Shown: piece after piece, positions 37,840 through 52,376 of the stretch
Position numbering within the stretch: position 1 is the first letter of the stretch
Layout of the letters: the number at the start of each line of letters is the position of its first letter
Assembly (NCBI RefSeq): GCF_000744735.1
Contig: NZ_JQMM01000001.1
Location: 1,736,001-1,800,000, forward strand
Length of the DNA stretch: 64,000 bases
DNA from: Porticoccus hydrocarbonoclasticus MCTG13d
GTDB taxonomy: Bacteria; Pseudomonadota; Gammaproteobacteria; Pseudomonadales; Porticoccaceae
Reading direction: 5' to 3'
Made by a program: the position numbers and the translations under genes
Notes under the pieces: model-generated
Databases searched by the model: none
The model's input: the letters and a program-made list of their open reading frames with translations, nothing else
What the model was told of the DNA's origin: nothing

Positions 37840-40494
37840 CTATGCGGCATCGACGTTCAGGGTCTCGTTAATCAGTTTGTTAAGCTCCGGTATGCAGGAG
37901 CCACAGTTGGTACCGCAGTTAAGTTGTTCTCCCAGTGCCTTTGTGGAATTTGCCCCATCGACAATGGCTGCCAGGATCTGTTTTTCGCCGACCTCAAAGC
38001 AGGCGCATATCAATTTGCCCCGGTCGGGCTGGTTCATGTCGATCCCCGCCAGCAATTGCCACGGGGAGGACGTTATCTCCCGACTGAGTAATCCCTGTAA
38101 CCAGCTTGTTGCCGGCATCAGTGTCAGACTGTGATGACTGAAGATGGCCATTTGTACCAATGCGCCCTCGTAGCAGATAAAACGCTCGTCCCTATGTTCG
38201 GTATCGGCGTACTGGGCGCAGTTGCCGGTGAAGCCCTGCTGGCTGATAAAGGCTTGCCAGTCGAAACCCTCGGTGGCAGCAAATCGGTAGCAATAGCCCT
38301 TGTTATCTGTCAGTGGCGTCATTGACCAATCGATGAATTCGTCGCATTCCAGGGGCTCCCTGCTGACCACCATTGCCCAAACCGGTGTCGCCACTTTTTT
38401 CAGTGCGGCGGGGGTAAATTTGAATTCGGGTTGCCCGGACACCGGGTCGGTCAATGGCGCAATCACTGAGCAAACGCGAGCCTGGCGGGCGAATTGGTCA
38501 TTCCAGTGAATCGGCATAAACAGCTGATTTTTCCCCATGCCTTCATCCAGCATCACGCCGACCCGGACGGCTCCATGTGCGGTGCGCACCTCTGCCAGAT
38601 CTCCATCGTGAAGTTCATTTGTATGGGCTGTTTCGGGGTGCACCAGGACAAAGGGCGCATCGATATGATTGAGCAATCGTTGGGCGCGGGCGGTGCGCGT
38701 CATGGTGTGCCACTGGTCACGGATTCTTCCGGTATTGAGCGCGTACGGGTAGGCAGCATTGAGGGACTGAACCGGCAGGCGGGGCGCAATGGCAATAAAC
38801 CGGGCTTTACCGGATGCCGTCACGAACCCGCCCTCAGTGAACAGGCGCGCTGTTCCCGCGGGAGATTCAGCCGTGACGGGCCATTGGATGGGTGAGAGAT
38901 CATTGTATTGTTGTTCAGACAGTTCGCTGAGGCCGCTGATATTGAAAATGCGCTTGCCGTTGTTTTTGAAGCCACTTAGTGCCGCATGTTCAACAAACAC
39001 ATCCCGGGCAGATTGATAGGGAAACGCTTCCGAGAACCCCAGCCTTTGTGCGACCTGGGTCATGATCCACCAGTCGTCCTTTGCTTCACCCACGGGTTTT
39101 ATCAGTGCTCGCTGTCTTGAGATGCGGCGCTCGGAGTTTGTGACGGTGCCGTTTTTCTCCCCCCAACCGGTAGCTGGCAGCAAAATATCAGCGGTGGCGG
39201 TCGTGTCTGTGGCTGCCACGCAGTCGGAGACAATCACGGTTTCACAGCGCTGCAGAGCCTCTCTGACACGATTGGCATCCGGCATGCTGACCACCGGATT
39301 GGTCGCCATAATCCAGATTGCCTTGATCCTGCCGTCGGCGACGGCATCAAACAGGTCCACTGCTTTCATGCCCGGCTGCTGGCAGAGTTGGTCGGTAGCC
39401 CAAAAGTCGGCCACGGTTCGCAAGTCCCCGGGGTTGTAGTCCATATGGGCAGCCAGCTGGTTGGCCAGACCGCCCACTTCCCGTCCACCCATGGCATTGG
39501 GCTGACCGGTAATCGAGAACGGGCCTGCGCCGACCTTGCCGATTCTTCCGGTGGCAAGGTGGCAATTGATAATGGCATTGCCCTTGTCAGTGCCGGAAGA
39601 GGATTGGTTGATCCCCTGTGAGTAGAAGGTGATGGTTTTATCCGTTTCGGCGAACCATTGGTAAAAGGTTTCCAGTACGTCCGTCTCAAGCCCGACCAGA
39701 CGGGCCGTTTCTGCAAAAGAGATGGCATTGGCGGCTTCCAGTGCCTCCCTATAGCCTTCGGTGTGCTGCGCTATATACTCAGAACGGCTGGCCCCCGTTT
39801 GCTGTAACCACGCCAGTAAACCGGCAAATAAATAGCCATCGGCACCGGGGTTGATCGGCAAATGGAGGTCGGCGAGATCACAGCTGGCTGTGCGGCGTGG
39901 GTCGATAACCACCACCCGCATGGTGGGATTTCGTTTTTTGGCAGCGGCCATCCGGCGATAGAGTACCGGGTGGGTCCAGGCAGCGTTGGAGCCAACCAGA
40001 ATCAGCAGATCGCAGTGATCCAGGTCTTCGTAACTGCAGGGCACTGCATCGGCACCAAAAGCCCGCTTATAGCTGGCGACGGCAGATGACATACAGAGCC
40101 GGGAATTGGTATCCACATTGCCAGTGCCCAGAAAGCCCTTGGCCAGCTTGTTGGCCACGTAGTAGTCCTCGGTGAGCAATTGTCCGGACAGGTAAAAGGC
40201 GATGGCGTCGGGGCCGTGTTCCTCGCGAACCTCGTTCAGTCGCTCTGCCACTGTATCGAGGGCGGTGTCCCAGTCGACCCGCTGACCGTTGACAGACGGG
40301 TAGAGCAGCCGGCCGTGGTCGCCCATGGTTTCGTGGAGCGCTGAACCTTTTACACAGAGGGCGCCGTAATTGGCGGGGTGGGTTTTGTCGCCGGATACGG
40401 CGATGATACTGTCGTCCTGTAACTTTGCAGAAACACCACAACCAACCCCGCAGTAGGGGCAGGTGGTTTCCAGGTTGGAGGTGGATGCACTCAT
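37840..40494 (-). CDS. nasA: assimilatory nitrate reductase catalytic subunit
   Basis: An 884-residue cytoplasmic molybdoenzyme that reduces nitrate to nitrite. The N-terminal [4Fe-4S] site is C12-x2-C15-x3-C19 with C47. The bis-MGD domain follows (SRLCMSSAVASYKRAFGAD, GQPNAMGGREVGG), then a molydopterin dinucleotide-binding C-domain (NTGRIRDQWHTMTRT). A BFD-like [2Fe-2S] module follows at about 805-880 (ICACFEVGEK and CGTNCGSCIPEL). No Tat signal is present, which excludes the periplasmic Nap type. Electrons probably come from the FAD protein at 43434-44654. Last gene of the operon. Confidence 0.95.
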   Translation of the reverse strand: MSASTSNLETTCPYCGVGCGVSAKLQDDSIIAVSGDKTHPANYGALCVKGSALHETMGDHGRLLYPSVNGQRVDWDTALDTVAERLNEVREEHGPDAIAFYLSGQLLTEDYYVANKLAKGFLGTGNVDTNSRLCMSSAVASYKRAFGADAVPCSYEDLDHCDLLILVGSNAAWTHPVLYRRMAAAKKRNPTMRVVVIDPRRTASCDLADLHLPINPGADGYLFAGLLAWLQQTGASRSEYIAQHTEGYREALEAANAISFAETARLVGLETDVLETFYQWFAETDKTITFYSQGINQSSSGTDKGNAIINCHLATGRIGKVGAGPFSITGQPNAMGGREVGGLANQLAAHMDYNPGDLRTVADFWATDQLCQQPGMKAVDLFDAVADGRIKAIWIMATNPVVSMPDANRVREALQRCETVIVSDCVAATDTTATADILLPATGWGEKNGTVTNSERRISRQRALIKPVGEAKDDWWIMTQVAQRLGFSEAFPYQSARDVFVEHAALSGFKNNGKRIFNISGLSELSEQQYNDLSPIQWPVTAESPAGTARLFTEGGFVTASGKARFIAIAPRLPVQSLNAAYPYALNTGRIRDQWHTMTRTARAQRLLNHIDAPFVLVHPETAHTNELHDGDLAEVRTAHGAVRVGVMLDEGMGKNQLFMPIHWNDQFARQARVCSVIAPLTDPVSGQPEFKFTPAALKKVATPVWAMVVSREPLECDEFIDWSMTPLTDNKGYCYRFAATEGFDWQAFISQQGFTGNCAQYADTEHRDERFICYEGALVQMAIFSHHSLTLMPATSWLQGLLSREITSSPWQLLAGIDMNQPDRGKLICACFEVGEKQILAAIVDGANSTKALGEQLNCGTNCGSCIPELNKLINETLNVDAA

Positions 40495-40887: not shown

Positions 40888-43413
40888 TTACGCCGATTTG
40901 GCCAACAGTTGGTCGGTTTCCTCTTCGGTGGCCGGCCGCGGTTGGCCACGCTCCTGCACGAACACAACCCGTTCATCCGCCGCATCAGCGTTGACGAACT
41001 GGCGGAAGCGTTTGAGTTTTTCCGGGTCTTCAATGGTGGTTTTCCACTCGCACTGGTAAGTGCCGACAATGCTGATCATCTGTTCCTCCAGTTCGGCACA
41101 GATACCCAGCCGGTCGTCGATGACCACCTCCTTCAGATAGTCGAGACCACCCTCCAGATTGTCCAGCCACACCGAGGTACGCTGCAGACGGTCGGCGGTG
41201 CGTACATAGAACATCAGGAAGCGGTCGATGTACTTGATCAGAGTTTCGTCATCCAGGTCGGTGGCGAACAGATCGGCGTGGCGAGGTTTCATGCCGCCAT
41301 TGCCGCACAGGTAGAGGTTCCAGCCGTGCTCGGTGGCAATTACCCCGAAGTCCTTGGATTGCGCCTCGGCACATTCCCGGGTACAGCCGGAAACTGCCGA
41401 CTTGATCTTGTGGGGGGAACGCAGACCCTTGTAGCGGTCCTCGATGTAGATCGCCATGCTGACGCTGTCCTGTACCCCGTAGCGGCACCAGGTGCTGCCG
41501 ACACAGGATTTGACGGTGCGCAGGGCCTTGCCGTAGGCGTGACCGGTTTCAAAGCCGGCGTCGATCAGTTCTTTCCAGATGTCCGGCAACTGATCTACTC
41601 TGGCGCCAAACAGGTCGATCCGCTGCCCGCCGGTAATCTTGGTGTAGAGGTTGTATTTTTTGCCCACCTTGCCGAGCACAATCAGTTTCTCCGGGGTAAT
41701 TTCGCCGCCCGGCACCCGCGGCACCACGGAATAGGTGCCGTTTTTCTGCATATTGGCCAGAAAGGTGTCGTTGGTGTCCTGCAGGCCCACATGCTTCTCT
41801 TCGAGAATATAGTCATTCCAGAGGGAAGCGAGGATGGAGGCGACCGTCGGTTTGCAGATCTCGCAGCCGCGACCGCTGCCGTGGTGCTTGATGAGATCCT
41901 CGAAGGATTTGATGGATTCCACTTTAATAATGTGGAACAGCTCCTGGCGGGTGAACTGGAAGTGCTCGCAGATGGACTTGTTCACCTCCATGCCCCGGGC
42001 CGCCATTTCGTCATCCACAATATTTTTCAGCAGCGCGGCACAGCCGCCACAGCCGGTGCTGGCTGCGGTGCAGGACTTCACATCCGCCAGCGAGCAGCAA
42101 CCGCCGTCGATGGCGCTGATGATGTCGCCCTTGCTGACATTGTGGCAGGAGCAGATCGTCGCCGTGGCGGGCAGGGCCGCCGCGCCGAGCAGTGGTGCGC
42201 CACCCTCGCTGGCGGGCAGAATCATGGTTTCTGGGTTGGCGGGCAGTTCGATGCCGTTGAGGTAATACTGCAACAGGGTGTCGTAGTCTGAGCAGTCGCC
42301 CACCAGTACTGCGCCCAGAGCGCTCTTGCCGTCTGCGCTGACAATCAGGCGTTTGTAGACTTCCTCGCGTTCGTCACTGAAGGTATAGGCGATGGCACCC
42401 GGAGTTTTACCGTGGGAATCGCCGATGGAACCCACGTCGACACCCAGCAGTTTCAGCTTGGTGCTCATGTCGGCGCCCTGAAAAGCACTGTGTTCGCCGG
42501 TCAACTGACTGACAGCCACTTCTGCCATGCGGTAGCCGGGGGCCACCAGACCGAAAATCATGCCGCCATACAGGGCACATTCACCGATCGCAAAAATGTC
42601 GGAATCACTGGTGCGACAGTGGTAGTCGATGGTGATACCGCCGCGCGGTCCCACCTCCAGGCCGCAATCTCTGGCCAGCTGGTCCGAGGGGCGAATTCCG
42701 GCGGAGAACACGATCACATCGGTGGCCAGGGTTTCGCCATCGGCAAAGTTCATCACCAGGCGGGTGTCCTTGCCACCGGTTGCTGAAATGGTCTGGGTCG
42801 CTTTATTGGTGTGTACCTGAACGTCCAGTGCTTCGATTTTGCGGCGCAGCATGGCACTCCCGCCATTGTCGAGCTGCACACCCATCAGGCCGGGGGCAAA
42901 TTCCACTACGTGGGTTTTCAGGCCGAGATTCTGGAGGGCATTGGCCGCCTCCAGACCCAGCAGGCCACCGCCGACCACGACGCCGACTTTGGCCTTCTTG
43001 CTTCTGGCCTGAATCATGCCGAGATCGTCGATGGTGCGATACACCAGACAGTCGGGCAGGTCGGCCCCGGGAATCGGCGGTACAAAGGGGTAGGAGCCGG
43101 TGGCCAGTACCAGTTTGTCGTAACGGAAGCTGCGGCCACCCTCGGTGGTGACTGTTTTGGCTTCCCGGTCAATGGTTGCCACGGCATCGCCGAAGTAGGC
43201 ATCCACGCCGATGGATTTGTAATGCTCGCGGGTAGTCAGTGCCAGCTCTTCCGGTTTCCGGCCTGCGAAGTATTCCGACAGGTGAACCCGGTCGTAAGCG
43301 GGGCGGGGTTCAGCCCCGAGCACGGTGATTTTGGCGGTAACGCCGGATCCGGCCAGTTGTTCCACGTAGTGGTGGCCCACCATTCCATTTCCTATAACGA
43401 CAATTTTCAACAT
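40888..43413 (-). CDS. nirB: nitrite reductase (NADH) large subunit
   Basis: An 841-residue cytoplasmic enzyme that reduces nitrite to ammonium with six electrons from NADH. Parts in order: FAD/NAD reductase domain (VIGNGMVGHHYVEQL; VVVGGGLLGLEAANAL near 150); BFD-type [2Fe-2S] domain near 420-470 (CSCHNVSKGD, STGCGGC); ferredoxin-like half; and the sirohaem-[4Fe-4S] domain with ligands C637-x5-C643 and C677-x3-C681. Length matches E. coli NirB (847). It lies between a second NirB-like FAD protein and nirD in the nitrate operon, indicating an assimilatory role. Confidence 0.95.
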   Translation of the reverse strand: MLKIVVIGNGMVGHHYVEQLAGSGVTAKITVLGAEPRPAYDRVHLSEYFAGRKPEELALTTREHYKSIGVDAYFGDAVATIDREAKTVTTEGGRSFRYDKLVLATGSYPFVPPIPGADLPDCLVYRTIDDLGMIQARSKKAKVGVVVGGGLLGLEAANALQNLGLKTHVVEFAPGLMGVQLDNGGSAMLRRKIEALDVQVHTNKATQTISATGGKDTRLVMNFADGETLATDVIVFSAGIRPSDQLARDCGLEVGPRGGITIDYHCRTSDSDIFAIGECALYGGMIFGLVAPGYRMAEVAVSQLTGEHSAFQGADMSTKLKLLGVDVGSIGDSHGKTPGAIAYTFSDEREEVYKRLIVSADGKSALGAVLVGDCSDYDTLLQYYLNGIELPANPETMILPASEGGAPLLGAAALPATATICSCHNVSKGDIISAIDGGCCSLADVKSCTAASTGCGGCAALLKNIVDDEMAARGMEVNKSICEHFQFTRQELFHIIKVESIKSFEDLIKHHGSGRGCEICKPTVASILASLWNDYILEEKHVGLQDTNDTFLANMQKNGTYSVVPRVPGGEITPEKLIVLGKVGKKYNLYTKITGGQRIDLFGARVDQLPDIWKELIDAGFETGHAYGKALRTVKSCVGSTWCRYGVQDSVSMAIYIEDRYKGLRSPHKIKSAVSGCTRECAEAQSKDFGVIATEHGWNLYLCGNGGMKPRHADLFATDLDDETLIKYIDRFLMFYVRTADRLQRTSVWLDNLEGGLDYLKEVVIDDRLGICAELEEQMISIVGTYQCEWKTTIEDPEKLKRFRQFVNADAADERVVFVQERGQPRPATEEETDQLLAKSA

Positions 43414-43433: not shown

Positions 43434-44654
43434 TTATTTCATTTCGCGTACGATGTCCTGACCGGCCAGGTCACTGAACATCAATTGATTTGCATTGGTG
43501 CCCAGTGGCTGCCCGCCGCTGATCAGGGTCTCGTAATGGCTGCACAGACTTTTGTCACCAAACAGCAGGGCAGCCTGCAAGCGGTCATTCTCAATCACCA
43601 GACGTCGATAAATACCGGCAGACGGGTCGCTGATCACAATATTGCGTTCACGGCTTCCCGTGTTTAGACGTCCCGCCGAAAACACATCAATCCCCGATAC
43701 CTTGAGCTGGGTAGAGTGTTCTCTGGGGCGATAACAGGCGGCGTTGCCCAGCAGGGTTTCGGCGAGGACTTTTGCCTGTTCCCAGATCGGCGCAACAATA
43801 CCCACGGTGGTGTTGTTGTGTTCCGAACACTCACCGAGGGCATAGATATGTTTGATAGACGTATGCATCTGGTCGTCGACGACGATGCCACGGTTGATTT
43901 TCAGATCGCTGTCCCTGAATGCCTGCACATTGGGTGAGATACCGGTAGCAAAGATCACCAGCTCGCCCGGTAACCAGTCTCCGTTATCCAGCATCAGGCC
44001 GTCTGCCCGTTCGCTGCCGGTAACGGCTTTGGTTCTTACCCCCGTGAGGACAGAGATACCGCGATCTTCAAGGCTTTTTTTCAGCATGGCAGCGGCGGTT
44101 GCATCGAGTTGCCGGTTCATCAGGTTGTCGCTGTTGTGCACCACGGTGACATCCAGGCCGAGATGATTCAGGCCATAGGCAGCTTCGAGTCCCAGCAGCC
44201 CACCGCCAACTACTACGGCATGCTGACCCTGCCGGGCGAATTCCTGCATGAGAGCGACATCATCAAGGGTGCGAAAGGACATGACACCGGGCAGGTTGTT
44301 TCCCTGAATTGATGGCACAACGGGTCTCGAGCCGGTGGCAATCACAATACGGGAAAATTGTGTCTGCCACCCTGAAGCGGTGGTTATGGTCAGATTGCCG
44401 GTATCCAGCTGAATCAGCGGGTCGCCGCAACGCAAACGAATATTGTTGACGCGATACCAGTCATCGCTGAGCAATGGCAGACAATTCAGGGTCTTGTCGC
44501 CGGTGAGTAACGAGGATAACTGGACGCGGTTATAGGCCTTGACCGGTTCTTCACCAATCATGGTGATTGACCCGGAAAAACCGCTATTTACCAGCGCCTC
44601 GGCGAGGCGTGCGCCTGCCATACCGGTTCCGACAATCGCAATAGAATCTGACAT
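43434..44654 (-). CDS. FAD/NAD(P)-dependent reductase of the nitrate operon (NasC-like)
   Basis: A 406-residue protein similar to the first half of NirB but without any Fe-S or sirohaem domain. It has the FAD Rossmann start GTGMAGARLAEALVNSG and the NAD-binding HAVVVGGGLLGLEAAYGL near 150, plus the second FAD contact in SIKHIYALGECSEH. Encoded between the transporter ATPase and nirB, it most likely passes electrons from NADH to NasA, as Klebsiella NasC or Bacillus NasB do. It lacks the C-terminal BFD module of NasC; NasA carries one instead, so the electron relay seems to be split differently. Confidence 0.82.
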   Translation of the reverse strand: MSDSIAIVGTGMAGARLAEALVNSGFSGSITMIGEEPVKAYNRVQLSSLLTGDKTLNCLPLLSDDWYRVNNIRLRCGDPLIQLDTGNLTITTASGWQTQFSRIVIATGSRPVVPSIQGNNLPGVMSFRTLDDVALMQEFARQGQHAVVVGGGLLGLEAAYGLNHLGLDVTVVHNSDNLMNRQLDATAAAMLKKSLEDRGISVLTGVRTKAVTGSERADGLMLDNGDWLPGELVIFATGISPNVQAFRDSDLKINRGIVVDDQMHTSIKHIYALGECSEHNNTTVGIVAPIWEQAKVLAETLLGNAACYRPREHSTQLKVSGIDVFSAGRLNTGSRERNIVISDPSAGIYRRLVIENDRLQAALLFGDKSLCSHYETLISGGQPLGTNANQLMFSDLAGQDIVREMK

Positions 44655-44657
44655 TGC

Positions 44658-45578
44658 TCAGGCTGCTCTGGTTTTGTCGGTACCAGTCGTTGTCTTACCG
44701 GTATCGACAGCGGCATCGTCATGTGACGAGGCCGGTTTACATGCCACTTCCTGTAACTTTCTGGCAGCGTCGGTGGGCTTTTTTTCAATTTGCGGGTTTT
44801 TCTGCTTGTCGTAGAGAAATTCCAGAACCTGCTGACGGTAGTGAATGAAATCGGCGTCTTCAGCCAGGGCCAGCCTGTTGCGTGGGCGGGGCAACTTGAC
44901 GTCGAGTATTTCGCCAATGGTGGCGGCGGGGCCGTTGGTCATCATGACGATTCGATCCGACAACAAAACGGCCTCATCCACATCGTGGGTAATCATGATC
45001 ACGGTGTTGCCCAGACTGGTCTGGATTTCCATCAGTGAATCCTGCAGGTGGGCACGGGTGAGGGCGTCCAGGGCGCCGAAGGGCTCGTCCATCAGCAACA
45101 CTTTGGGTTGCATGGCCAGACAGCGGGCGATACCGACGCGCTGTTTCATGCCGCCGGATATTTCTCCGGGTAGTTTGTGCAGGGCGTGGTCCATGTGAAC
45201 CAGGGAGAGGTTGTGTTCAATCCACTCGTGCATTTCCGCCTTGTTTTTGGTCTTGCGGAAGACCCTTTTTACTGCCAGTTCGACATTCTGGTAGACCGTT
45301 AGCCAGGGCAACAGGGCATGGTTCTGGAAGACCACTGCCCGGTCGGGTCCCGGTTTGTCGACTTCGCGTCCCTCGAGAATGACCCCGCCTTCACTGGCCT
45401 CATAGAGACCGGCGATGATATTCAATACCGTGGATTTACCGCAGCCGGAATGGCCAATCAGCGAGACAAACTGGCCCTTGTCGATTGATAGGTCGACATC
45501 CTGCAGGGCGCGAAACGGTTCACCATCGGTGGTAAATTCGATACCGATATGGCTGATTTCCAGATAGGGGGTTTTCAT
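44658..45578 (-). CDS. nrtD: nitrate ABC transporter ATP-binding protein
   Basis: A 306-residue single-domain ABC ATPase of the nitrate/sulfonate/taurine group: Walker A GHSGCGKST, signature ISGGMKQRVGIARC, Walker B VLLMDEPFGALD, H-loop MITHDVDEAV. The last 45 residues are a hydrophilic tail unrelated to the core. It works with NrtB and NrtA. Unlike cyanobacterial systems, there is only one ATPase gene and no NrtC fusion. Three bp separate it from the downstream FAD reductase gene, so the two are coupled. Confidence 0.9.
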   Translation of the reverse strand: MKTPYLEISHIGIEFTTDGEPFRALQDVDLSIDKGQFVSLIGHSGCGKSTVLNIIAGLYEASEGGVILEGREVDKPGPDRAVVFQNHALLPWLTVYQNVELAVKRVFRKTKNKAEMHEWIEHNLSLVHMDHALHKLPGEISGGMKQRVGIARCLAMQPKVLLMDEPFGALDALTRAHLQDSLMEIQTSLGNTVIMITHDVDEAVLLSDRIVMMTNGPAATIGEILDVKLPRPRNRLALAEDADFIHYRQQVLEFLYDKQKNPQIEKKPTDAARKLQEVACKPASSHDDAAVDTGKTTTGTDKTRAA

Positions 45579-45608: not shown

Positions 45609-46610
45609 TTAGCGTAGAATGGCCTGTTTGTCCCAGCTGATGCGTTTCTGAAGGATCAACATGAGGCGATCCAGCAGAAAACCGATCAGTCCAATGGTCA
45701 CCACGGCCACCATGATGCGACCCAGTGAATCCGATGAGCCGTTCTGAAACTCATCCCAGATAAATTTGCCCAAACCGGGGTTCTGGGCCAGCATCTCGGC
45801 GGCAATCAATACCATCCAGCCAGTGGCCAGTGATAACCGCATACCGGTGAAAATCATGGGTATGGCGGAGGGGATAACAATTTTTCGGACGTGCACCAGC
45901 GAAGGCAGTTGCAGAACCCGGCTGACGTTGACCAGATCGCGATCAATACTGGTGACGCCCACCGTGGTGTTGATCACGGTCGGCCAAAGGCAACACAGCG
46001 CCACAGTAAATGCGGAGGTCAGAAAGGCCTTTTCAAACATGGGATCGTCGGTGACATAAAGGGCCGATACCACCATCGTCACCAGCGGCAGCCATGCCAG
46101 GGGTGAGACCGGCTTGAATGTCTGGATGATCGGGTTCACCGACTGGTAAACTTTTTCGCTCAAGCCACAGATGATGCCCAGAGGCACTGCAATCACTGTG
46201 GCGATCAAAAACCCGAAAGACACGGTATAGAGGCTGGTTATCACCTGATCCAGGAAGGTGGCTTTACCGGTATAGCTGCGAATTTTCACTTCCGCATCAG
46301 GATTCTGGGCCAGCCGTTTGGCATTTCTCTCTTCCTGCCGCTGATAGAATGCGGCTGCTTTTTTTCGTTCCCGTTGGTGCTCGGCCAGCAAGCCCTTTGA
46401 TTGCTCCCAGACTTGAACCGGTCCCGGAAACTGCCCCAGTGAGGTATCGATGTTGTTGGCGACACCCTGCCAGAGCATTAAGAAAATCAGGATACCTGCA
46501 AGGGGCAGGGCGAGGGTTTTACCCACTGCGCGGGCAATACTGCTCAGTTGTGAGATAGAGAAGTGGGCGATTCCCTGTTCATTCCTGAAAATGGCAGCAA
46601 GGTCAGTCAT
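45609..46610 (-). CDS. nrtB: nitrate ABC transporter permease
   Basis: A 333-residue BPD-type permease with an EAA-type loop toward the ATPase (NVSRVLQLPSLVHVRKIVIPS). Compared with typical NrtB it has a hydrophilic, charged insert of about 55 residues after the first helix (about 70-120, rich in R, K, E and Q). The same insert type is seen in some gammaproteobacterial nitrate permeases as far as I recall. It forms the inner-membrane channel for nitrate and possibly nitrite. Starts 71 nt after nrtA. Confidence 0.9.
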   Translation of the reverse strand: MTDLAAIFRNEQGIAHFSISQLSSIARAVGKTLALPLAGILIFLMLWQGVANNIDTSLGQFPGPVQVWEQSKGLLAEHQRERKKAAAFYQRQEERNAKRLAQNPDAEVKIRSYTGKATFLDQVITSLYTVSFGFLIATVIAVPLGIICGLSEKVYQSVNPIIQTFKPVSPLAWLPLVTMVVSALYVTDDPMFEKAFLTSAFTVALCCLWPTVINTTVGVTSIDRDLVNVSRVLQLPSLVHVRKIVIPSAIPMIFTGMRLSLATGWMVLIAAEMLAQNPGLGKFIWDEFQNGSSDSLGRIMVAVVTIGLIGFLLDRLMLILQKRISWDKQAILR

Positions 46611-46681: not shown

Positions 46682-48073
46682 TCAGAGCGTTTCGTCTTTC
46701 AGGCCAATGGAAAATGTCTCCAGGTATGCGTTGGGTTGTGTGCCATCGAACGTGATGTTGTCGATAAATTCTGATTGAGGCGGTTTGAAGCCGGATTCAC
46801 TGTCCAGGTCCGGGAAATCCTCCGCAGACATGAGTCCTTCTGCAATCAATGCTTTGGCAGCAGTGGCATAGATGCCCGGGAGATAGACTTTCCTGGCGGT
46901 CTCGAAATACCACTCATCGCTTTTGGGCTCGGCAATCTGGCCCCAGCGGCGCATCTGGGTTAAATACCAGACGGCATCGGAGTAATAGGGGTAGGTGGCA
47001 AAATGACGGAAGAACACGTTGAAGTCGGGTACGTCGCGTTTGTCACCCTTTTCGTATTCAAAGGTTCCCGTCATGCTATTGGCAATGACGTCATAATCCG
47101 CGCCGACGTATTCCGAGCGGGAGAGAATTTCAACGGCTTCCGGGCGGTTGGCATTGTTGTTCTCATCCAGCCACTTGGCGGCACGCAGCATGGCCTTGAC
47201 CAGGCGGGCAGTGGTGTTCGGGTACTTCTCGGTAAACTCCTTGGTCATGCCAAAAACTTTTTCCGGGTTGTTTTTCCAGATCTCATAATCCGTGATGACT
47301 GGAACCCCGATGCCCATGAATACCGCTTGCTGGTTCCATGGCTCACCGACGCAGTAGCCGTGAATGGTGCCAGCCTCAAGGGTGGCGGGCATCTGGGGAG
47401 GAGGTGTGACAGAGAGCAGGGCTTCGGCATTGATATTGCCGCTGGTATCGCCCTTGTGTGGTGCGTAGAAGCCGGGGTGAATACCACCGGCTGCCAGCCA
47501 GTAGCGCAACTCGTAGTTGTGCGTCGAGACCGGGAAAACCATGCCCATTTTAAATGGTGTGCCCTGCGCCCGCATCTGATCGACCACCGGCTTGAGATAG
47601 TCGGCTTTGATCGGGTGAACCGGTTTACCGGCAGCCATCGGTACGTGGGCTTTCATTTTCTCCCAGACAGCATTGGAAACGGTAATACCATTTCCGTTGA
47701 GGTCCATACTGAACGGTGTAACGATGTGGGCTTTGGTGCCAAAGCCGATGGTGGCCGCCAGGGGCTGACCGGCGAGCATGTGGGCGCCATCAAGTTTGCC
47801 GTCGATAACCCCATCCAGCAGTACTTTCCAGTTAGCCTGTGCCTCGATGGTGACGTAGAGCCCCTCATCCTCGAAATAGCCATTTTCGTAGGCGATGGCG
47901 ATAGGTGCCATGTCCGTGAGCTTGATAAAGCCAAACTTGAGCTCGTCCTTTTCAGGTGGCCCCAGTTCAGCGTGTGCCCAGCTGGCCATGACCAAAAAGG
48001 ATAGGGTCAACAGGATCCATTGTGAAACTTTCAATCTTTTCTGTACCGGAGAGTTTTGAAGATTGCTATTCAT
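46682..48073 (-). CDS. nrtA: nitrate-binding periplasmic protein
   Basis: A 463-residue solute-binding protein of the NrtA/CmpA family. An N-terminal signal (about 18-35, [16 protein letters not shown]) should export it to the periplasm. The ligand region shows [35 protein letters not shown] and [16 protein letters not shown], all shared with the cytoplasmic sensor NasS encoded just upstream. First gene of the nrtA-B-D-FAD-nirB-nirD-nasA unit. Its leader holds a sigma-54-type promoter, an ANTAR-type hairpin and a terminator, described separately. Confidence 0.93.
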
Positions 48074-48108
48074 TTAACGGGTACCTCAGCTATGAATGTC
48101 ACTTGCAT

Positions 48109-48146
48109 AAAAAAAGCCCACCTGCAGGTTTTATGTGCAGGGGGCT
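48109..48146 (-). terminator. leader terminator upstream of nrtA
   Basis: Read on the - strand, AGCCCCCTGCA pairs with TGCAGGTGGGCT across a nine-nt loop and is followed by seven U. It lies between the promoter and the nrtA ATG (end 36 nt before it), so by default the operon would be shut off. Its 5' arm shares bases with the AAUGAA hairpin at 48142-48155; the two cannot form together. Confidence 0.75.
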
Positions 48147-48155
48147 TCATTGCCC
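48142..48155 (-). promoter_or_regulatory. ANTAR-type antiterminator hairpin in the nrtA leader
   Basis: On the - strand GGGC-AAUGAA-GCCC: a four-bp stem with a six-nt loop carrying A at 1 and G at 4, the loop rule of ANTAR-binding RNA. An eight-bp hairpin (TTAATACC/GGTATTAA, 48156-48179) lies immediately upstream and could be the partner stem, although its eight-nt loop does not follow the rule. The likely ligand is NasT, encoded 1.4 kb upstream. Confidence 0.6.
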
Positions 48156-48212
48156 TTAATACCATTGGACAGGTATTAACCGGTGCGTTATTGATGTCTT
48201 ACCAAATAGATA

Positions 48213-48228
48213 TACAAAATATATGCCA
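48213..48228 (-). promoter_or_regulatory. sigma-54 (-24/-12) promoter of the nrtA operon
   Basis: On the - strand TGGCA, six bases, then TTG-TA: GG at -24 and GT in place of GC at -12, with the correct ten-base spacing. The start would be roughly 95 nt before the leader terminator's U-run. Sigma-54 dependence fits nitrogen assimilation genes; the -12 mismatch may lower strength. Confidence 0.5.
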
Positions 48229-48277
48229 AATAATAAAGTCGGCAAAAACAGGGTGTTGATATGAGCGGTTAGGGGGC

Positions 48278-48296
48278 CGCCGGACCCGGCGGCACA
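48278..48296 (-). terminator. GC-rich hairpin after nasS
   Basis: A seven-bp perfect stem (GCCGCCG/CGGCGGC, loop of four) lies about 70 nt after the nasS stop and upstream of the nrtA promoter. There is no U-run directly after it, so it may only pause polymerase or protect the nasTS mRNA end. Confidence 0.35.
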
Positions 48297-48321
48297 ATTA
48301 TGGGGCGCTTTTCAATCGAGT

Positions 48322-48337
48322 TGCACCAAGAGGTGAA
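48322..48337. promoter_or_regulatory. NtrC-like site upstream of the nrtA promoter
   Basis: TGCACC-AAGA-GGTGAA resembles the NtrC dyad (TGCACC-N5-GGTGCA) with one base less spacer and one mismatch. It lies about 95-110 bp upstream of the -24/-12 element, the usual enhancer distance. Confidence 0.35.
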
Positions 48338-48363
48338 CTCGGGCCTGGTTGTTGCGGGGAGTG

Positions 48364-49587
48364 TTAGTCGTTGCGATTTTTTTGCAGCACCTGGGGAGAT
48401 ACCATCAGATCGCTACCCAATTTAATCTGATCATTAAACCAATAGGGTTCAGCGTGAGATCCTTCACTCTTGTGATCCTGATCCGGTGTGGGGTAACCCA
48501 GCAACCGGGCAGCTTCGCGGTATAAATCCGTCCGGAAACATTGTTGCGTAATAGACACAATTTTGTCGCGATCAAAAACCTTGCCCAGCAGCGGCTCACA
48601 GTGATGGAGAAGAAACTCCGCCTGAGACCGCCATGGAAAGCCGGCATTGTAACTGGCAAAAACGTGGAAATTCGGGTGATGTTCAGCCGCACAGCCGCGG
48701 TCATAGACCAGGTTGCCGGTCAGTGAAGGCCGCAAATAGTTGGTGGGCAAGTCCAGGTAGTCCCGGCGAGTCAACATTTGCACAGTGGCTTCACGATTGG
48801 CCATGTCGGCCAGCCACTGACAGGCCTCCATCAATGCCAACCGCAACCGGAGGTGAGTGGCGGGATTGCGGGTATGCCATTCCTCCATGACACCCAATAC
48901 TTTTTCCGGTGCATTGTTCCAGACATGGAACCCCGTGGTAGCCAGTACACCGACACCATATTCCACCGCGATACTGTTCCAGGGTTCACCGGCACAGAAA
49001 CCGTCGATTACGCCCTGAGCCAGGCTATCCACCATCTGCTCCGGTGGCAGTACGATGACCCTGACATCGCGATCCGGATCAATACCGCCCGCCTCAAGGC
49101 ACATGCGAAGCAATTGTGTGTGTGTGGAGAAAGAGTGAACAGTGGCGAGGGTAATTGTCTGGTTGCTGGGCAGTTTATCCAATACTTTTTTGAGTGCTCT
49201 GGCACTTGCCAGGGGTTGATTGGCCAGCAATGGAGTTTCCGACTGGTTGAGCATTTGTTCCCATAGGGGGCGGGACAGGGTAATCCCGTTACCATTGAGC
49301 GACAGCACCAACCCGGTGACAATCGGCGCGCGTATCCCCGCAGCCCCCAGCGTTGTTACCAGCGGCATGGGTGCCAGCATCTGACAGGCGTCAAAATTGC
49401 CGGCAATCAGTTTATCGCGGATATTGGCCCATGAGACCTCCCTGCAAAGCGTCACATCCAGGCCGTATTTGGCAAAAAGCCCAAGTTCCTGGGCGATGAT
49501 CAACGGCGCGCTGTCACTCAGTCGCATATAGCCGATATTAAGATTTTGCCGTTCGCCGGTTGGTAATTTATGGGTAGTTGTCTGCAT
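48364..49587 (-). CDS. nasS: cytoplasmic nitrate sensor of the NasS type
   Basis: A 407-residue NrtA/CmpA-family binding protein with no signal peptide: the protein starts directly with a polar N-terminus and LNIGYMRLSDSAPLIIAQELG. The binding-site segments parallel those of NrtA (CQMLAPMPLVTT, LNGNGITLSRPLWE). In Azotobacter, Pseudomonas and rhizobia, NasS holds the antiterminator NasT inactive until it binds nitrate. Its start is two nt after the nasT stop, so sensor and effector are co-translated. This makes a periplasmic transport role unlikely. Confidence 0.9.
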   Translation of the reverse strand: MQTTTHKLPTGERQNLNIGYMRLSDSAPLIIAQELGLFAKYGLDVTLCREVSWANIRDKLIAGNFDACQMLAPMPLVTTLGAAGIRAPIVTGLVLSLNGNGITLSRPLWEQMLNQSETPLLANQPLASARALKKVLDKLPSNQTITLATVHSFSTHTQLLRMCLEAGGIDPDRDVRVIVLPPEQMVDSLAQGVIDGFCAGEPWNSIAVEYGVGVLATTGFHVWNNAPEKVLGVMEEWHTRNPATHLRLRLALMEACQWLADMANREATVQMLTRRDYLDLPTNYLRPSLTGNLVYDRGCAAEHHPNFHVFASYNAGFPWRSQAEFLLHHCEPLLGKVFDRDKIVSITQQCFRTDLYREAARLLGYPTPDQDHKSEGSHAEPYWFNDQIKLGSDLMVSPQVLQKNRND

Positions 49588-49589
49588 GA

Positions 49590-50201
49590 TTATCTCGCGC
49601 TGCGACTGGGCTTTCCCAGAATATTAATCACTGACCGAGCCGCCTCGGGCAAACTCTGGTTGGTGTCCATCGAGAGTGTCCGCAAGGTTTTATGTGCCTT
49701 GTCCTCGCTGATGCCGCGTTGATCCATCAATAGTTGTTTCGCCTCTTCTATAACAGACTGGCTGGCAAGCTTGGTGCGTGCGTCATCCAGGGCTCTGCGC
49801 AGTGACTGGTAGGACTTGAACTGGGCAATGGCCAGATCAATAACCGGTTTGACGCGGTCCGGGTTCAGTTCATCCATCAGGTAGGCGGTCACTCCGGCGT
49901 CCACGGCCTGTTCGATAAAAGCGGGATCTTCTTCATGGGAAAACATGACCACTGGTCGTGGATTATGGTGGTTGACCACCGAGAGACTCTCCAGCACATC
50001 GCGACCGGGTGACTGAATATCGATTAATACCAGGTCTGGTTGATGCTGTTCAATCTGGAACAGTAATCCGGTCGCCGATGGCAACCGCGAAATGACTTCA
50101 AAACCGGAATCCCGGAGCTTTTCTTCGACACTAGCGGAACGTTCGACATGATCATCGACCAGCATGATGCGGATGGGGTCCCTGACTGAAGGTGGTGTCA
50201 T
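49590..50201 (-). CDS. nasT: ANTAR-domain transcription antiterminator NasT
   Basis: A 203-residue RNA-binding regulator. The N-terminal receiver-like domain has the acidic DD pair (IMLVDDH) and a possible phospho-acceptor Asp (LVLIDIQ). The conserved lysine of true receivers is absent (TAYLMDEL where a K is normal), so regulation by NasS binding rather than phosphorylation is expected. A coiled helix leads to the C-terminal ANTAR domain (about 140-195: SVIEEAKQLLMDQRGISEDKAHKTLR). It should bind the leader hairpins at 48142 and 51592 and prevent termination. Confidence 0.93.
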   Translation of the reverse strand: MTPPSVRDPIRIMLVDDHVERSASVEEKLRDSGFEVISRLPSATGLLFQIEQHQPDLVLIDIQSPGRDVLESLSVVNHHNPRPVVMFSHEEDPAFIEQAVDAGVTAYLMDELNPDRVKPVIDLAIAQFKSYQSLRRALDDARTKLASQSVIEEAKQLLMDQRGISEDKAHKTLRTLSMDTNQSLPEAARSVINILGKPSRSAR

Positions 50202-50249
50202 GGTGCTCTATTTGAAGTAATTCGTTGGAAGGATAGATTTAAAAATGCG

Positions 50250-50286
50250 AAAAAATCAGTGGCAGGAGAATCATAGCCCGCCACTG
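50250..50286 (-). terminator. intrinsic terminator of the porin gene
   Basis: On the - strand CAGTGGCGGG pairs with CCTGCCACTG (ten bp, one G-U) around a ten-nt loop, followed by A and six U. It lies about 28 bp after the porin stop and 50 bp before nasT. The porin mRNA should therefore be monocistronic, and nasTS should have its own promoter. Confidence 0.8.
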
Positions 50287-50314
50287 AGAGAGATGCCACG
50301 GTGATGTTCCGGGA

Positions 50315-51523
50315 TCAGAACTTCACATTGACTGAAAACCAGATTTTGTCAGTGTCCTGAGAGAACTCATCGGCATCGTATTTGGCGTACTTCAGCTCGA
50401 CGCCGACATATTTGTTGATCGGGTAGCTTGCCACGGCATTATATTCCTCGCCATAGTCGGCGCTGCCCTCGTCGGCGGAATAATCGTGGTAGAAAAAGGC
50501 CAGATTGGTTTTGCCAATGCTGCCGGTCATTTTGAAGTAAATGTCCTCGATACCATCGGCAGGTGTGACCAGAAACTGATCCGCCCATCCCTGAAACTTG
50601 TGCAGGGTGGCGAGGGGCGTGCTGAAGGCTTTCATCCCGTCATCACTGCCGAGTAATTCATAACCGATGCCCAGACCGACGCCTTTGATCTTTGTACCGA
50701 TTTCGGCCATGTAGTAGTCGGCGTCGTAATCAATTGGCCCATCGGCATAATCGGTCTGGCTGGCGGCACTGGCTGCCAGAGTGACGGGTCCAACGGCACC
50801 GCTGTACTCAATACCATAGGTTTGTGATGAATTGGCTGCTGCATTGTCGAAATCCAGCAGATAGGCAAAGGCGGCCAGCTTGTGACCTTCAATTGGCGAA
50901 AATGACAGGTAGAGTGCGTGAGAGTCAGAGTCGTAGCGACGCGGTTGTGCACCACCGGTATCGGGTCCAAAAATTCGGTTTACATCCCAGATATAGCTGT
51001 AATCCAGTGTGACTGGCCCGATGGGCAATTGCACTCGTACTGAGTCATAGGTCTGTTCGTTCTGGCGCCAGCCCACGCCGCCGATAAACCGCTGGCCGGA
51101 ATGGAGAATGCGTTGGCGACCAGCTGTACCGGTAAAGCCATCTTGTTGATACTTGAGATAGACCTGATTGATATCGGTACCATCCGGATCGGCAACAATG
51201 GGATATTCACCGACTTTCCCGTTGGAGGGTGTCGCGTAGTTTTCGCCGCCAATATGGCTTACGTCATCGACTTCCAGTAAGCCGGAAAAGCCATGATAGC
51301 TGGCCGAAGTCCAGGTTATGCGGGACTTTAGTGTGGATGCATTGGCATTTTTCTCGGCATTTTCATCATCCACATGCTCAAATCGATAACGAAAAGTAAA
51401 ACTGGTATCACTCTTGGTGAATATTTCTGAAAGACTGGTGGCCTCTTCGGCATTTACCATCAGAAAAGGATGGAGGCCAAACAGTAATGCAAAAGCTGAA
51501 AGTCGAAAAGATCTCGGTTTCAT
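50315..51523 (-). CDS. outer-membrane porin, alginate-export (AlgE-like) family
   Basis: A 402-residue beta-barrel protein with a cleavable signal (about 1-25, ending MVNA). It has alternating amphipathic strands and a C-terminal aromatic residue (WFSVNVKF), as needed for BAM-dependent insertion. The YRFEHVDDENAEKNANASTLKSR opening, in two parts, and the GTAGRQRILHSGQRFIGG segment are typical of the alginate-export porin family, members of which are often nutrient-specific. Its 5' leader copies the control elements of the nrtA operon, so I infer that it admits nitrate (or nitrite). Alternative substrates are not excluded. Confidence 0.85.
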   Translation of the reverse strand: MKPRSFRLSAFALLFGLHPFLMVNAEEATSLSEIFTKSDTSFTFRYRFEHVDDENAEKNANASTLKSRITWTSASYHGFSGLLEVDDVSHIGGENYATPSNGKVGEYPIVADPDGTDINQVYLKYQQDGFTGTAGRQRILHSGQRFIGGVGWRQNEQTYDSVRVQLPIGPVTLDYSYIWDVNRIFGPDTGGAQPRRYDSDSHALYLSFSPIEGHKLAAFAYLLDFDNAAANSSQTYGIEYSGAVGPVTLAASAASQTDYADGPIDYDADYYMAEIGTKIKGVGLGIGYELLGSDDGMKAFSTPLATLHKFQGWADQFLVTPADGIEDIYFKMTGSIGKTNLAFFYHDYSADEGSADYGEEYNAVASYPINKYVGVELKYAKYDADEFSQDTDKIWFSVNVKF

Positions 51524-51560
51524 GTGAAATTCCTCGAGTTTGTTTTCCCCAAAACAAAAA

Positions 51561-51596
51561 TAAAAAAGCCCGTACGCAGGATGGTGCGTACGGGCT
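51561..51596 (-). terminator. leader terminator upstream of the porin gene
   Basis: On the - strand a perfect twelve-bp stem (AGCCCGTACGCA/TGCGTACGGGCT, six-nt loop) is followed by six U. It lies between the porin promoter and its ATG, ending about 40 nt upstream of it. The 5' arm overlaps the AAUGAA hairpin, as in the nrtA leader. Confidence 0.85.
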
Positions 51597-51605
51597 TCAT
51601 TACCC
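51592..51605 (-). promoter_or_regulatory. ANTAR-type antiterminator hairpin in the porin leader
   Basis: On the - strand GGGU-AAUGAA-GCCC, identical in loop and nearly in stem to the hairpin at 48142-48155; the shared string is AATGAAGCCC. No convincing upstream partner hairpin is visible in the short leader, so either the element is minimal or the first stem is degenerate. Confidence 0.58.
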
Positions 51606-51632
51606 AGTAGGATGTAGTGTCAAAAAGTTATA

Positions 51633-51648
51633 AGCATAACGCGTGCCA
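51633..51648 (-). promoter_or_regulatory. sigma-54 (-24/-12) promoter of the porin gene
   Basis: On the - strand TGGCACG, four bases, then ATGCT: invariant GG and GC with exactly ten bases between, and a full match to the -24 half. The start would be near 51619, a few nucleotides upstream of the antiterminator hairpin. Confidence 0.7.
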
Positions 51649-51881
51649 TATATCGAATAATGGCTATTTCAGTTGTTATGGGTGGCCTGTAGGGCGTCGG
51701 GCGGGGAGTTTTTGTTTGAATTTGGTGCGATAAAGATGCGGGTGCGGAGTAATTTGGGGCAAGAAGCAGCCTCTGATCTTTGGTGCTTGTCCGATAGCAA
51801 CAGCGGAGAATTTGGCGGGATGATACATGTACCCATGGTTGCCATGGGTGAGGCATGGCCGAGTTAACAATGATGGGCTAT
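51649..51881. promoter_or_regulatory. upstream region of the porin gene with two NtrC-like half-sites
   Basis: No gene is seen here. Two identical TTTGGTGC octamers occur at 51721-51728 and 51779-51786, roughly 75 and 130 bp upstream of the -24/-12 promoter. They match half of the NtrC dyad and share the GCACCAA core with the site upstream of nrtA. Spacing suits enhancer binding; the second half of each dyad is poor. Confidence 0.35.
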
Positions 51882-51913
51882 AAAACAACCCCGGCTATCT
51901 GATAACCGGGGTT
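51882..51913 (-). terminator. intrinsic terminator of the EF-hand gene
   Basis: AACCCCGG-TATC and GATA-CCGGGGTT (51887-51913) form a stem of twelve pairs with one mismatch; on the - strand it is followed by GTTTTA. It lies 17 bp after the stop of the EF-hand gene and separates it from the porin control region. Confidence 0.7.
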
Positions 51914-51930
51914 ATCGGGCACTGGCAATC

Positions 51931-52260
51931 CTATTTATCGGTTTTGTTGCAATGCAGGCGACGTTTTTCCTTCCATTCTGCTTTCATTCGCGTCCTGGCT
52001 TCCATAGCTTCGGTTTTGCTCACCAGTCCATTGCCATCGGCATCCATTGCGTTGAAGTGGGCCATGCGTTCTTCCATTTTTTTCCGGAGGCCCGCTTCAT
52101 GCTCTGCTCTTGATATATTGCCGTCCTGGTCAGTATCCATTTTTTGAAACATGGAACCGGTATAACTTTTCCTGGTATCGGACTGATCGGATTTTATTGT
52201 TGTCTCGGCGAAGCTGGATGTGGCGAGAACAATGCCCGCCAGTAATACTAGTCGTCGCAT
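51931..52260 (-). CDS. exported EF-hand calcium-binding protein
   Basis: A 109-residue protein with a signal peptide (about 1-18, ending SSFA) and two EF-hand loops: DTDQDGNISRAE and DADGNGLVSKTE. Both have acidic residues at positions 1, 3, 5 and 12. The spacing of about 30 residues is right for a paired EF-hand. The rest is charged and helical. Such small periplasmic EF-hand proteins are common in gammaproteobacteria with no fixed role; calcium buffering or sensing is only a guess. Confidence 0.83.
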   Translation of the reverse strand: MRRLVLLAGIVLATSSFAETTIKSDQSDTRKSYTGSMFQKMDTDQDGNISRAEHEAGLRKKMEERMAHFNAMDADGNGLVSKTEAMEARTRMKAEWKEKRRLHCNKTDK

Positions 52261-52376
52261 GGTATTTCCTCATTGGTGATTAAAGACGTGATGCTTTTAA
52301 CGCCAGCATAAGGATTCGGTTGACCTGCGGGCTGTATAAATTTCGAAGAAAGGGTTTCGTCGATACAACAGTATGC

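Follow-up and report, generated by a model that had tools for sequence, protein, structure and literature searches.

Nitrate is usually taken to cross the outer membrane by way of “general porins”, and the question raised by the locus described here is whether a bacterium can place this step under the control of its own nitrate sensor. The locus lies in a stretch of 64,000 nucleotides (nt) from Porticoccus hydrocarbonoclasticus MCTG13d (contig NZ_JQMM01000001.1, positions 1,736,001 to 1,800,000), hereafter the window, which is part of a 2.47-Mb single-contig genome of 99% completeness. Open reading frames (ORFs) and profile matches give the 5' to 3' order porin, nasT, nasS, nrtA-nrtB-nrtC-FAD reductase-nirB-nirD-nasA, with all parts on the minus strand. 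From the letters of the window alone, a first-pass annotation had proposed that the leaders of the porin gene and of nrtA are copies of one control module, that the ANTAR protein NasT, encoded between them, antiterminates both, and that the porin is a dedicated nitrate entry channel. We argue, with good though not full confidence, that the porin unit and the nrtABC-FAD reductase-nirBD-nasA unit share a two-step switch made up of sigma-54 and NasT, and that nitrate or nitrite most likely passes the outer membrane through the porin.

Two leaders built to one plan

The four elements listed by this annotation for both leaders, namely a -24/-12 promoter, a GGGY-AAUGAA-GCCC hairpin (P2), a terminator overlapping it and a short spacing between U-run and ATG, are all present in the sequence. 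Their coordinates in the window are given below, with E-values from the covariance model R1 described further on.

51634..51648, minus strand: -24/-12 (sigma-54-type) promoter of the porin unit, TGGCACGCGTTATGC, a consensus match
51592..51605, minus strand: P2 hairpin of the porin leader, GGGU-AAUGAA-GCCC, GGGTAATGAAGCCC, loop 51596-51601; R1 E 4.2e-9 (the sequence itself is in the model)
51562..51595, minus strand: terminator and U-run of the porin leader (stem 51568-51595, U6 51562-51567), with GCCC common to P2
48214..48228, minus strand: -24/-12 promoter of the nrtA operon, TGGCATATATTTTGT, a consensus match
48142..48155, minus strand: P2 hairpin of the nrtA leader, GGGC-AAUGAA-GCCC, GGGCAATGAAGCCC, loop 48146-48151; R1 E 1.1e-6 (close relatives are in the model)
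48109..48145, minus strand: terminator and U-run of the nrtA leader (stem about 48116-48145, U7 48109-48115), from folding

In both leaders the 3' arm of P2, GCCC, is at the same time the first arm, or foot, of the intrinsic terminator, and U-run and ATG are 38 nt apart in the porin leader and 35 nt apart in the nrtA leader. The terminator stretch folds at -25.1 kcal/mol in the former and at -17.5 kcal/mol in the latter, a stability equalled by 0/200 and 4/200 shuffles, respectively. The exact 14-mer GGGYAATGAAGCCC occurs at two places in the 2.47-Mb genome, which are the two leaders; with up to one mismatch it occurs at five, as compared to one for a reversed control pattern. When both strands of the window were scanned for an ANNGNN hexaloop overlapping a terminator, 7 matches were returned. 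The two leaders alone among them had an AAYGA loop, which was absent from the 5, 4 and 4 matches in three Markov copies.

The sigma-54 element, whose consensus is TGGCAY-N5-NTGY, is present at both units and provides their predicted starts. NtrC-like sites, scored against the consensus TGCACC-N5-GGTGCA, reached at least 9/12 in 24/35 upstreams (38 rows less 3 that were dropped) versus 11% of shuffles, with the nrtA upstream of the window scoring 9/12 and that of the porin 7/12. Sigma-54 control of the units is thus likely.

How far the leaders resemble an ANTAR target

The first-pass annotation had also held that the AAUGAA loop obeys the A1/G4 rule for ANTAR targets. This stands for P2, as both window leaders have a hairpin of at least 3 bp with an A1/G4 hexaloop next to the terminator, and P2 and the terminator are mutually exclusive, given the common GCCC and the pair counts for both pairings. 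According to excerpts of PMC3369931 and PMC8934654, published ANTAR targets carry two hexaloops joined by a short linker, and it is with respect to the first of these (P1) that the rule does not stand: between predicted start and P2 no A1/G4 hexaloop on a stem of at least 3 bp is recognisable in either window leader, which therefore do not have the full dual-hairpin ANTAR form. The nrtA leader, a classical kind of NasT target, thus lacks P1 no less than the porin leader does. Its long UUAAUACC/GGUAUUAA hairpin has no A1/G4 hexaloop. In all leaders taken together, a P1-type upstream hairpin was found in 12/55 versus 7.4% of shuffles, a weak enrichment, and well-formed examples occur in the porin leaders of L047 and L048 (GAC-AUUGCA-GUC) and in the nasA leaders of L149 and L151. 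On sequence grounds, the window leaders would work like ANTAR attenuators, short of the dual-hairpin definition. The minimal binding site consists of one hexaloop in the excerpted text of PMC8934654, and the question is raised whether one hexaloop is enough for NasT.

On 23 aligned leaders, 96.7% of P2 cells are paired. Shuffles equalled the percentage paired and the covariation score in 4 of 500 cases, the number of double-changed pairs in 33 and that of pair types in 240, and because of the latter two figures the covariation of P2 is to be called modest. The terminator is paired in 96.2% of cells of the same leaders, with 38 double-changed cells (0/500 shuffles) and a number of double-changed pairs reached by 37/500. 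Across 36 leaders the loop reads A1 in 36, A2 in 34, Y3 in 31, G4 in 33 and A5 in 28. Since A1 and G4 were selection criteria (with A or G allowed at position 4 for rows failing the strict scan described below), and since an AA loop was preferred where one leader gave several matches, so that position 2 is not independent either, only positions 3 and 5 count as independent evidence. This table omits four porin and two nrtA leaders that are near-identical to others, and the nrtA leader of L057, which the scanner missed.

Two further observations on leaders deserve mention in their own right. In L057 and L071, the porin loops read AATAAA and AACAAG and the nrtA loops AATCGA (by eye) and AATAGA, and the ANTAR helix of NasT is, by eye, altered at the LLM and LR positions in these loci, a possible co-change of protein and RNA. 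In L041-L044, the first 20 nt past the predicted start contain GACATTG in the porin leaders and AATGTC at the matching place in the nrtA leaders; in L041, L043 and L044 the two leader starts are longer reverse complements of each other (GACATTGC versus GCAATGTC), as might suit an RNA hairpin or a DNA operator.

The leader follows nas linkage

Relatives of the porin were collected as at least 593 pattern matches in the genome collection, 581 of which were confirmed, and the comparison was confined to the best 80 loci. A nasT match comes after the porin in 22/80 (the match in L103 is weak, and L062 stops at a contig end), and the order porin-nasT-nasS-nrtA recurs in Porticoccaceae, Halieaceae and relatives; in L058 the porin adjoins nrtA with no nasT match. 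The closest named relatives are Porticoccus metagenome-assembled genomes, one of which encodes a porin 100% identical to that of the window.

The strict scanner called for an ANNGNN loop on a stem of at least 3 bp, with its 3' arm forming the base of a terminator that has a U-run. It recognized 19/24 linked porin upstreams, a set that includes the window and the nasT-less L058, versus 1/57 others, and 3/240 Markov controls; the linked porins missed were L055, L057, L071, L103 and L058. On the 80 rows of the porin tree, where L058 was treated as unlinked, the leader was present at 18/22 nas-linked versus 1/58 other porins. A first version with stems of at least 4 bp had recognized the window and 11 linked loci and, of the unlinked ones, L092, which is missed by the later version from which the strict counts derive, where 3-bp stems were allowed and terminators were scored by folding. 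With the U-run waived and G4 optional, the relaxed scan was positive for 22/22 linked and 12/58 unlinked porins (sign test, median p 0.06). The single strict match among unlinked loci, L112, has a -24/-12 site and may be real. Such a site precedes 20/22 nas-linked versus 7/58 unlinked porins and 18/20 nrtA genes of the relatives. Of the nrtA upstreams, 14/20 pass the strict rules, five pass only the relaxed ones (four through a poor U-run), and L057 fails.

Monophyly of the nas-linked porins is rejected, as linked and unlinked porins are interleaved on the tree with 10 label changes. Among 8 phylogenetically independent pairs, the presence of the leader agrees with linkage in 6.0 on average, with no pair pointing the other way (p between 0.016 and 0.063, median 0.03), and the Porticoccus paralogues L045 and L078, which are 70-71% identical to the window porin and not nas-linked, lack it. 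The leader tracks nas linkage, not porin phylogeny. The first-pass annotation had made its claim hang on conservation of the leader upstream of orthologous porins; the leader is conserved there, and on this point the claim survives.

NasT as the likely reader

NasT is the only ANTAR match of a profile search in the genome, and it comes with the hallmarks of a NasS-NasT system, that is, a receiver plus ANTAR domain in NasT and an adjoining NrtA-like NasS. A library check of the two leaders, as suggested by the first-pass annotation, gave no backing: at gathering thresholds, Rfam matched only the signal recognition particle RNA in the window, and a permissive search of 48000-51700 gave only matches far under gathering scores. 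Since the library did not confirm the leaders, we built our own covariance model, R1, from 23 leaders of nas-linked loci.

In its own genome R1 matched three places at E ≤1.3e-4, the next hits (E 0.4 and 0.6) looking like ordinary terminators by eye. The known leaders account for two of these three places, one being in the model and the other having close relatives in it. Among 58 relatives, R1 matched (E ≤1e-3) in 17 and NasT (E ≤1e-10) in 25; all 17 are within the 25, and the 33 NasT-lacking relatives have no R1 match. In 390 genomes of the order, R1 at E ≤1e-4 found 29 places in 24 genomes, with downstream genes, some of which (substrate-binding proteins or SBPs, the FAD-reductase-like ORF, NasA) were named by eye, as follows: porin 5, nrtA 7, nitrate-binding-protein-like SBPs 2, an amide/urea-type SBP 1, a FAD-reductase-like ORF 1 and no ORF found 1. 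The other 12, all of one genus, lie beside nirB, with a NasA-like ORF downstream in the 6 examined. Thus 22/29 places precede nitrate or nitrogen-type genes or the porin, 6 lie beside nirB next to an ORF that was not read, and 1 has no ORF.

The third place in the own genome is an observation apart. It is a leader at G000:C1:1520591-1520651 on the minus strand (locus L118/L188), absent from the model, and it has a separate -24/-12 site and the hairpin AGGU-AAUGAA-GCCU. Downstream of it lies the gene for a FAD reductase that combines a NirB-like N-terminal domain with a BFD domain, and whose neighbours encode a multihaem cytochrome, a Tll0287-like protein and a cytochrome c. Seven further genomes of the same genus have an R1 match (E 1.7e-5 to 4e-4) outside the porin/nrtA locus; in L148 the match precedes this same reductase. 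A NasT-controlled cytochrome module, if true, would be unexpected.

The proposal that NasT governs both units is supported by these comparisons: because the leaders are kept across genera and track both nas linkage and NasT presence, and because NasT is the sole ANTAR protein found, antitermination of both units by NasT is well supported, as far as sequence comparison goes.

A proposed two-step switch

In the model that we propose, the porin forms one transcription unit, from which some transcripts probably run on into nasT-nasS, and nrtABC-FAD reductase-nirBD-nasA forms the other. In the first step, shortage of nitrogen would let sigma-54 RNA polymerase start both units. In the second, the leader would fold into the intrinsic terminator if nitrate is absent; with nitrate present, NasS would release NasT, which would hold the AAUGAA hexaloop hairpin and thereby keep GCCC from the terminator, allowing readthrough. 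As a consequence of the two steps, the porin would be made under nitrogen limitation when nitrate is present. The sequences themselves show how the leaders are built, that they are conserved and covary, and that they occur together with NasT and nitrate genes; from this we infer that NasT binds the leaders, that readthrough depends on nitrate and initiation on sigma-54 and NtrC, and that nitrate permeates the porin. Given that relatives, too, keep the porin under a nitrate-type switch, it is probably nitrate's way through the outer membrane.

Several observations weigh against this model. EutV antitermination needs both hexaloops (excerpts of PMC3369931 and PMC8934654), and P1 is not recognisable in the window leaders. 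G4 is lost from both leaders of L057 and L071, several Halieaceae-clade nrtA terminators have no U-run, and the window porin promoter lacks a good NtrC-like site (7/12). The scanner was loosened to 3-bp stems after inspection of mostly linked upstreams, a rule that thus favours the linked count of 19/24. There is no R1 match in 8/25 NasT-bearing relatives, and R1 was trained on nas-linked leaders, many of them from the same genomes, so that many positives arise by construction and the telling part is the 0/33 among NasT-lacking relatives; this does not apply to the third leader in the genome of the window, nor to the matches at nirB, nasA and SBP genes, which are not by construction. Finally, when charged residues of nas-linked and near unlinked porins were compared, no aligned position differed by half or more.

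Nitrate channel or ordinary porin?

The suggestion of a dedicated nitrate channel finds its backing in genome context, and there more widely than originally claimed, and none in pore residues. Within flanks of up to 6 kb, 36/58 unlinked relatives lie near narHJI, a NarK-type transporter of the major facilitator superfamily (MFS), nnrS, moaA, nirB, nasA or nrt genes, versus 0/20 arbitrary 13.2-kb windows taken at round coordinates from nine genomes of Pseudomonadales, an order to which many of the unlinked porins do not belong. The nnrS, nar, NarK-type and moaA markers were chosen after the neighbours of 12 loci had been inspected (L045, L046, L060, L063, L065, L067, L068, L069, L083, L087, L089 and L114); without these, 26/46 unlinked loci carry a marker, which in 8 of the 26 is either just moaA or a weak nasA/nrtA match. 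TIGR00886 is the basis for calling MFS proteins NarK-type, and 2/6 of them exceed its cut-off. In L060, L066, L074 and L098 the porin relative stands directly after narHJI, followed in L060 and L074 by nnrS, perhaps as a respiratory version of the channel family.

As to fold, AlgE is an 18-strand barrel, and so is the AlphaFold2 model of the window porin (mean predicted local distance difference test 83.7, predicted template modeling (TM) score 0.81). The label “AlgE-like” given at first is loose all the same: the Pfam Alginate_exp match (38.2 bits versus a cut-off of 25.2) covers only 135/395 profile positions, whereas Porin_4 is matched over nearly its whole profile, and a Foldseek search with the model placed OccAB4 first (E 1.2e-16, TM 0.71), then MOMP and other Occ channels, with AlgE from rank 14. 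Membership of the Occ/OprD family is not indicated by sequence, the NCBIfam Opr family scoring 30 bits versus a cut-off of 150, and the porin sequence had no match in the PDB up to E 10. An obvious nitrate filter in the pore was sought and dropped: the conserved charges are alike in linked and unlinked porins, and therefore the pore sequence gives no nitrate signature.

This likeness of charges and the nearness in fold to OccAB4 are what one would expect of an ordinary general or carboxylate (Occ-like) porin that has come under nitrogen control and provides a pore without particular nitrate use. We regard this as rather unlikely, though deserving of weight, because nitrate genes near 36/58 unlinked relatives would be unexpected for a general porin. 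The porin is thus most likely an outer-membrane entry for nitrate or nitrite, a reading that stems from genomic context and not from pore residues. More tentatively, and with slightly more doubt than belief, we suggest that the whole family may be nitrate/nitrite channels of the outer membrane used in respiratory settings (under other control) and in assimilatory nas settings (under sigma-54 and a one-hexaloop NasT leader), which would make the outer membrane a point at which marine Gammaproteobacteria regulate their uptake of nitrate.

One operon or two units?

It is also conceivable that the porin leader mainly autoregulates nasT-nasS, with porin, nasT and nasS forming one operon, NasT acting on the leader of that operon, and the porin simply carried along. 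The three genes are codirectional, the porin-nasT gap showed no terminator-like hairpin in 9/22 loci, and in L055 the stop of the porin gene and the aligned start of nasT overlap. In the other 13/22, including L036-L044, L047 and L048, the gap does contain such a hairpin, which in L036, with a gap of the window type, has -17.9 kcal/mol and a U-run; moreover, the porin family also occurs near nitrate genes without nasT, and in L058 it adjoins nrtA itself. As a general account we therefore hold it to be unlikely. Six of the nine loci where no gap hairpin was found belong to the Halieaceae clade (L050, L054-L057 and L071), and for this reason porin-nasT-nasS may be a single NasT-autoregulated operon in that clade. 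A further alternative, that some factor other than NasT acts on the leaders as on ordinary attenuators, with a coincidental hexaloop match, could draw on the missing P1 and the two loci without G4, and is very improbable given that loop positions 3 and 5, outside the selection, are also conserved (Y 31/36, A 28/36) and that R1 matches among relatives are confined to NasT-bearing genomes.

Genes of the locus

The genes under the proposed sigma-54 and NasT switch, with the regulators between them, are as follows.

50315..51523, minus strand: porin, 402 amino acids, predicted 18-strand barrel (AlphaFold2 model); Pfam Alginate_exp 9.5e-10, Porin_4 1.4e-6
50202..50314, minus strand: porin-nasT gap with terminator-like hairpin and U-run (-17.9 kcal/mol, measured in the near-identical locus L036)
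49590..50201, minus strand: nasT, receiver and ANTAR domain; Pfam ANTAR 2.6e-17, Response_reg 1.9e-13
48364..49587, minus strand: nasS, NrtA-like nitrate sensor; Pfam NMT1_2 2.5e-75; the ORF begins 2 nt past the nasT end
46682..48073, minus strand: nrtA, nitrate-binding protein of an ATP-binding cassette transporter; Pfam NMT1_2 1.2e-95
45609..46610, minus strand: nrtB, permease; NCBIfam TIGR01183 1.7e-46, under its cut-off
44658..45578, minus strand: nrtC, ATPase; NCBIfam TIGR01184 343.8 bits versus a cut-off of 291.8
43434..44654, minus strand: NAD(P)H/FAD reductase of NirB N-terminal type; Pfam Pyr_redox_2; TIGR02374 partial, under its cut-off
40888..43413, minus strand: nirB, nitrite reductase large subunit; NCBIfam TIGR02374 1095 bits
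40521..41069, minus strand: nirD-like Rieske protein (start provisional); Pfam Rieske_2 1.7e-36
37840..40494, minus strand: nasA, probable assimilatory nitrate reductase, named from domains and operon; Pfam Molybdopterin 3.6e-74 and Fer2_BFD

Upstream of the porin unit, at about 51913-52261 on the minus strand, lies a gene for a small, probably secreted protein with EF-hand-like calcium-binding motifs (by eye). Elsewhere in the genome (G000:C1:1187022-1187330, minus strand) there is a short degenerate porin fragment of 38% identity with two in-frame stops.

Relation to known systems

The arrangement resembles Paracoccus denitrificans NasS-NasT/nasA, where, in excerpts of PMC3795266 and PMC5424462, NasT and NasS stand beside the nitrate assimilation operon, the leader contains hairpins, nitrate or nitrite dissociates NasS-NasT, and NasT freed by nitrate binds the nasA leader RNA. 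Unlike in Paracoccus, the leader here also precedes a porin, in the order porin-nasT-nasS-nrtA; the excerpted text of PMC5424462 does not mention a porin. With NasR/nasF of Klebsiella and EutV/eut (excerpts of PMC3369931 and PMC8934654) the window leaders share the A1/G4 hexaloop and a hairpin mutually exclusive with an intrinsic terminator, but they show only the terminator-proximal one of the two linked hairpins. That NasT acts beyond the nas operon on nitrogen genes is seen in Bradyrhizobium diazoefficiens, where the part of PMC6759348 at hand names nap, nos, coxS, nirA and amino-acid transport, and no porin. In an ntrC mutant of Burkholderia cenocepacia, nasT is lowered along with several outer-membrane porins; the excerpts of PMC5491218 state no NasT link for these porins and describe no leader. 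PMC4899447, on nitrate use in Alteromonas, mentions neither porin nor NasT, and no tie between NasT and a porin was found in titles and abstract openings of the open-access literature, a body that mostly leaves out subscription journals.

The closest precedent is OpdQ of Pseudomonas aeruginosa, an OprD-family porin raised by nitrate and, unlike what is proposed for the window porin, controlled via NarXL and not by NasT antitermination (excerpts of PMC4694141); its structure (3t24) is among the Foldseek matches, at 13-15% identity to the window porin in the structural alignment. Taken together, the mechanism is a known one, and what appears to be new is a porin as target of a NasT leader and the breadth of the porin's association with nitrate, which together make it a probable case of NasST control over one member of a channel family associated with nitrate. 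If true, the NasT regulon would reach the cell envelope, and a porin family wired to nitrate sensing and also found near respiratory nitrate genes would name a gene for the outer-membrane step.

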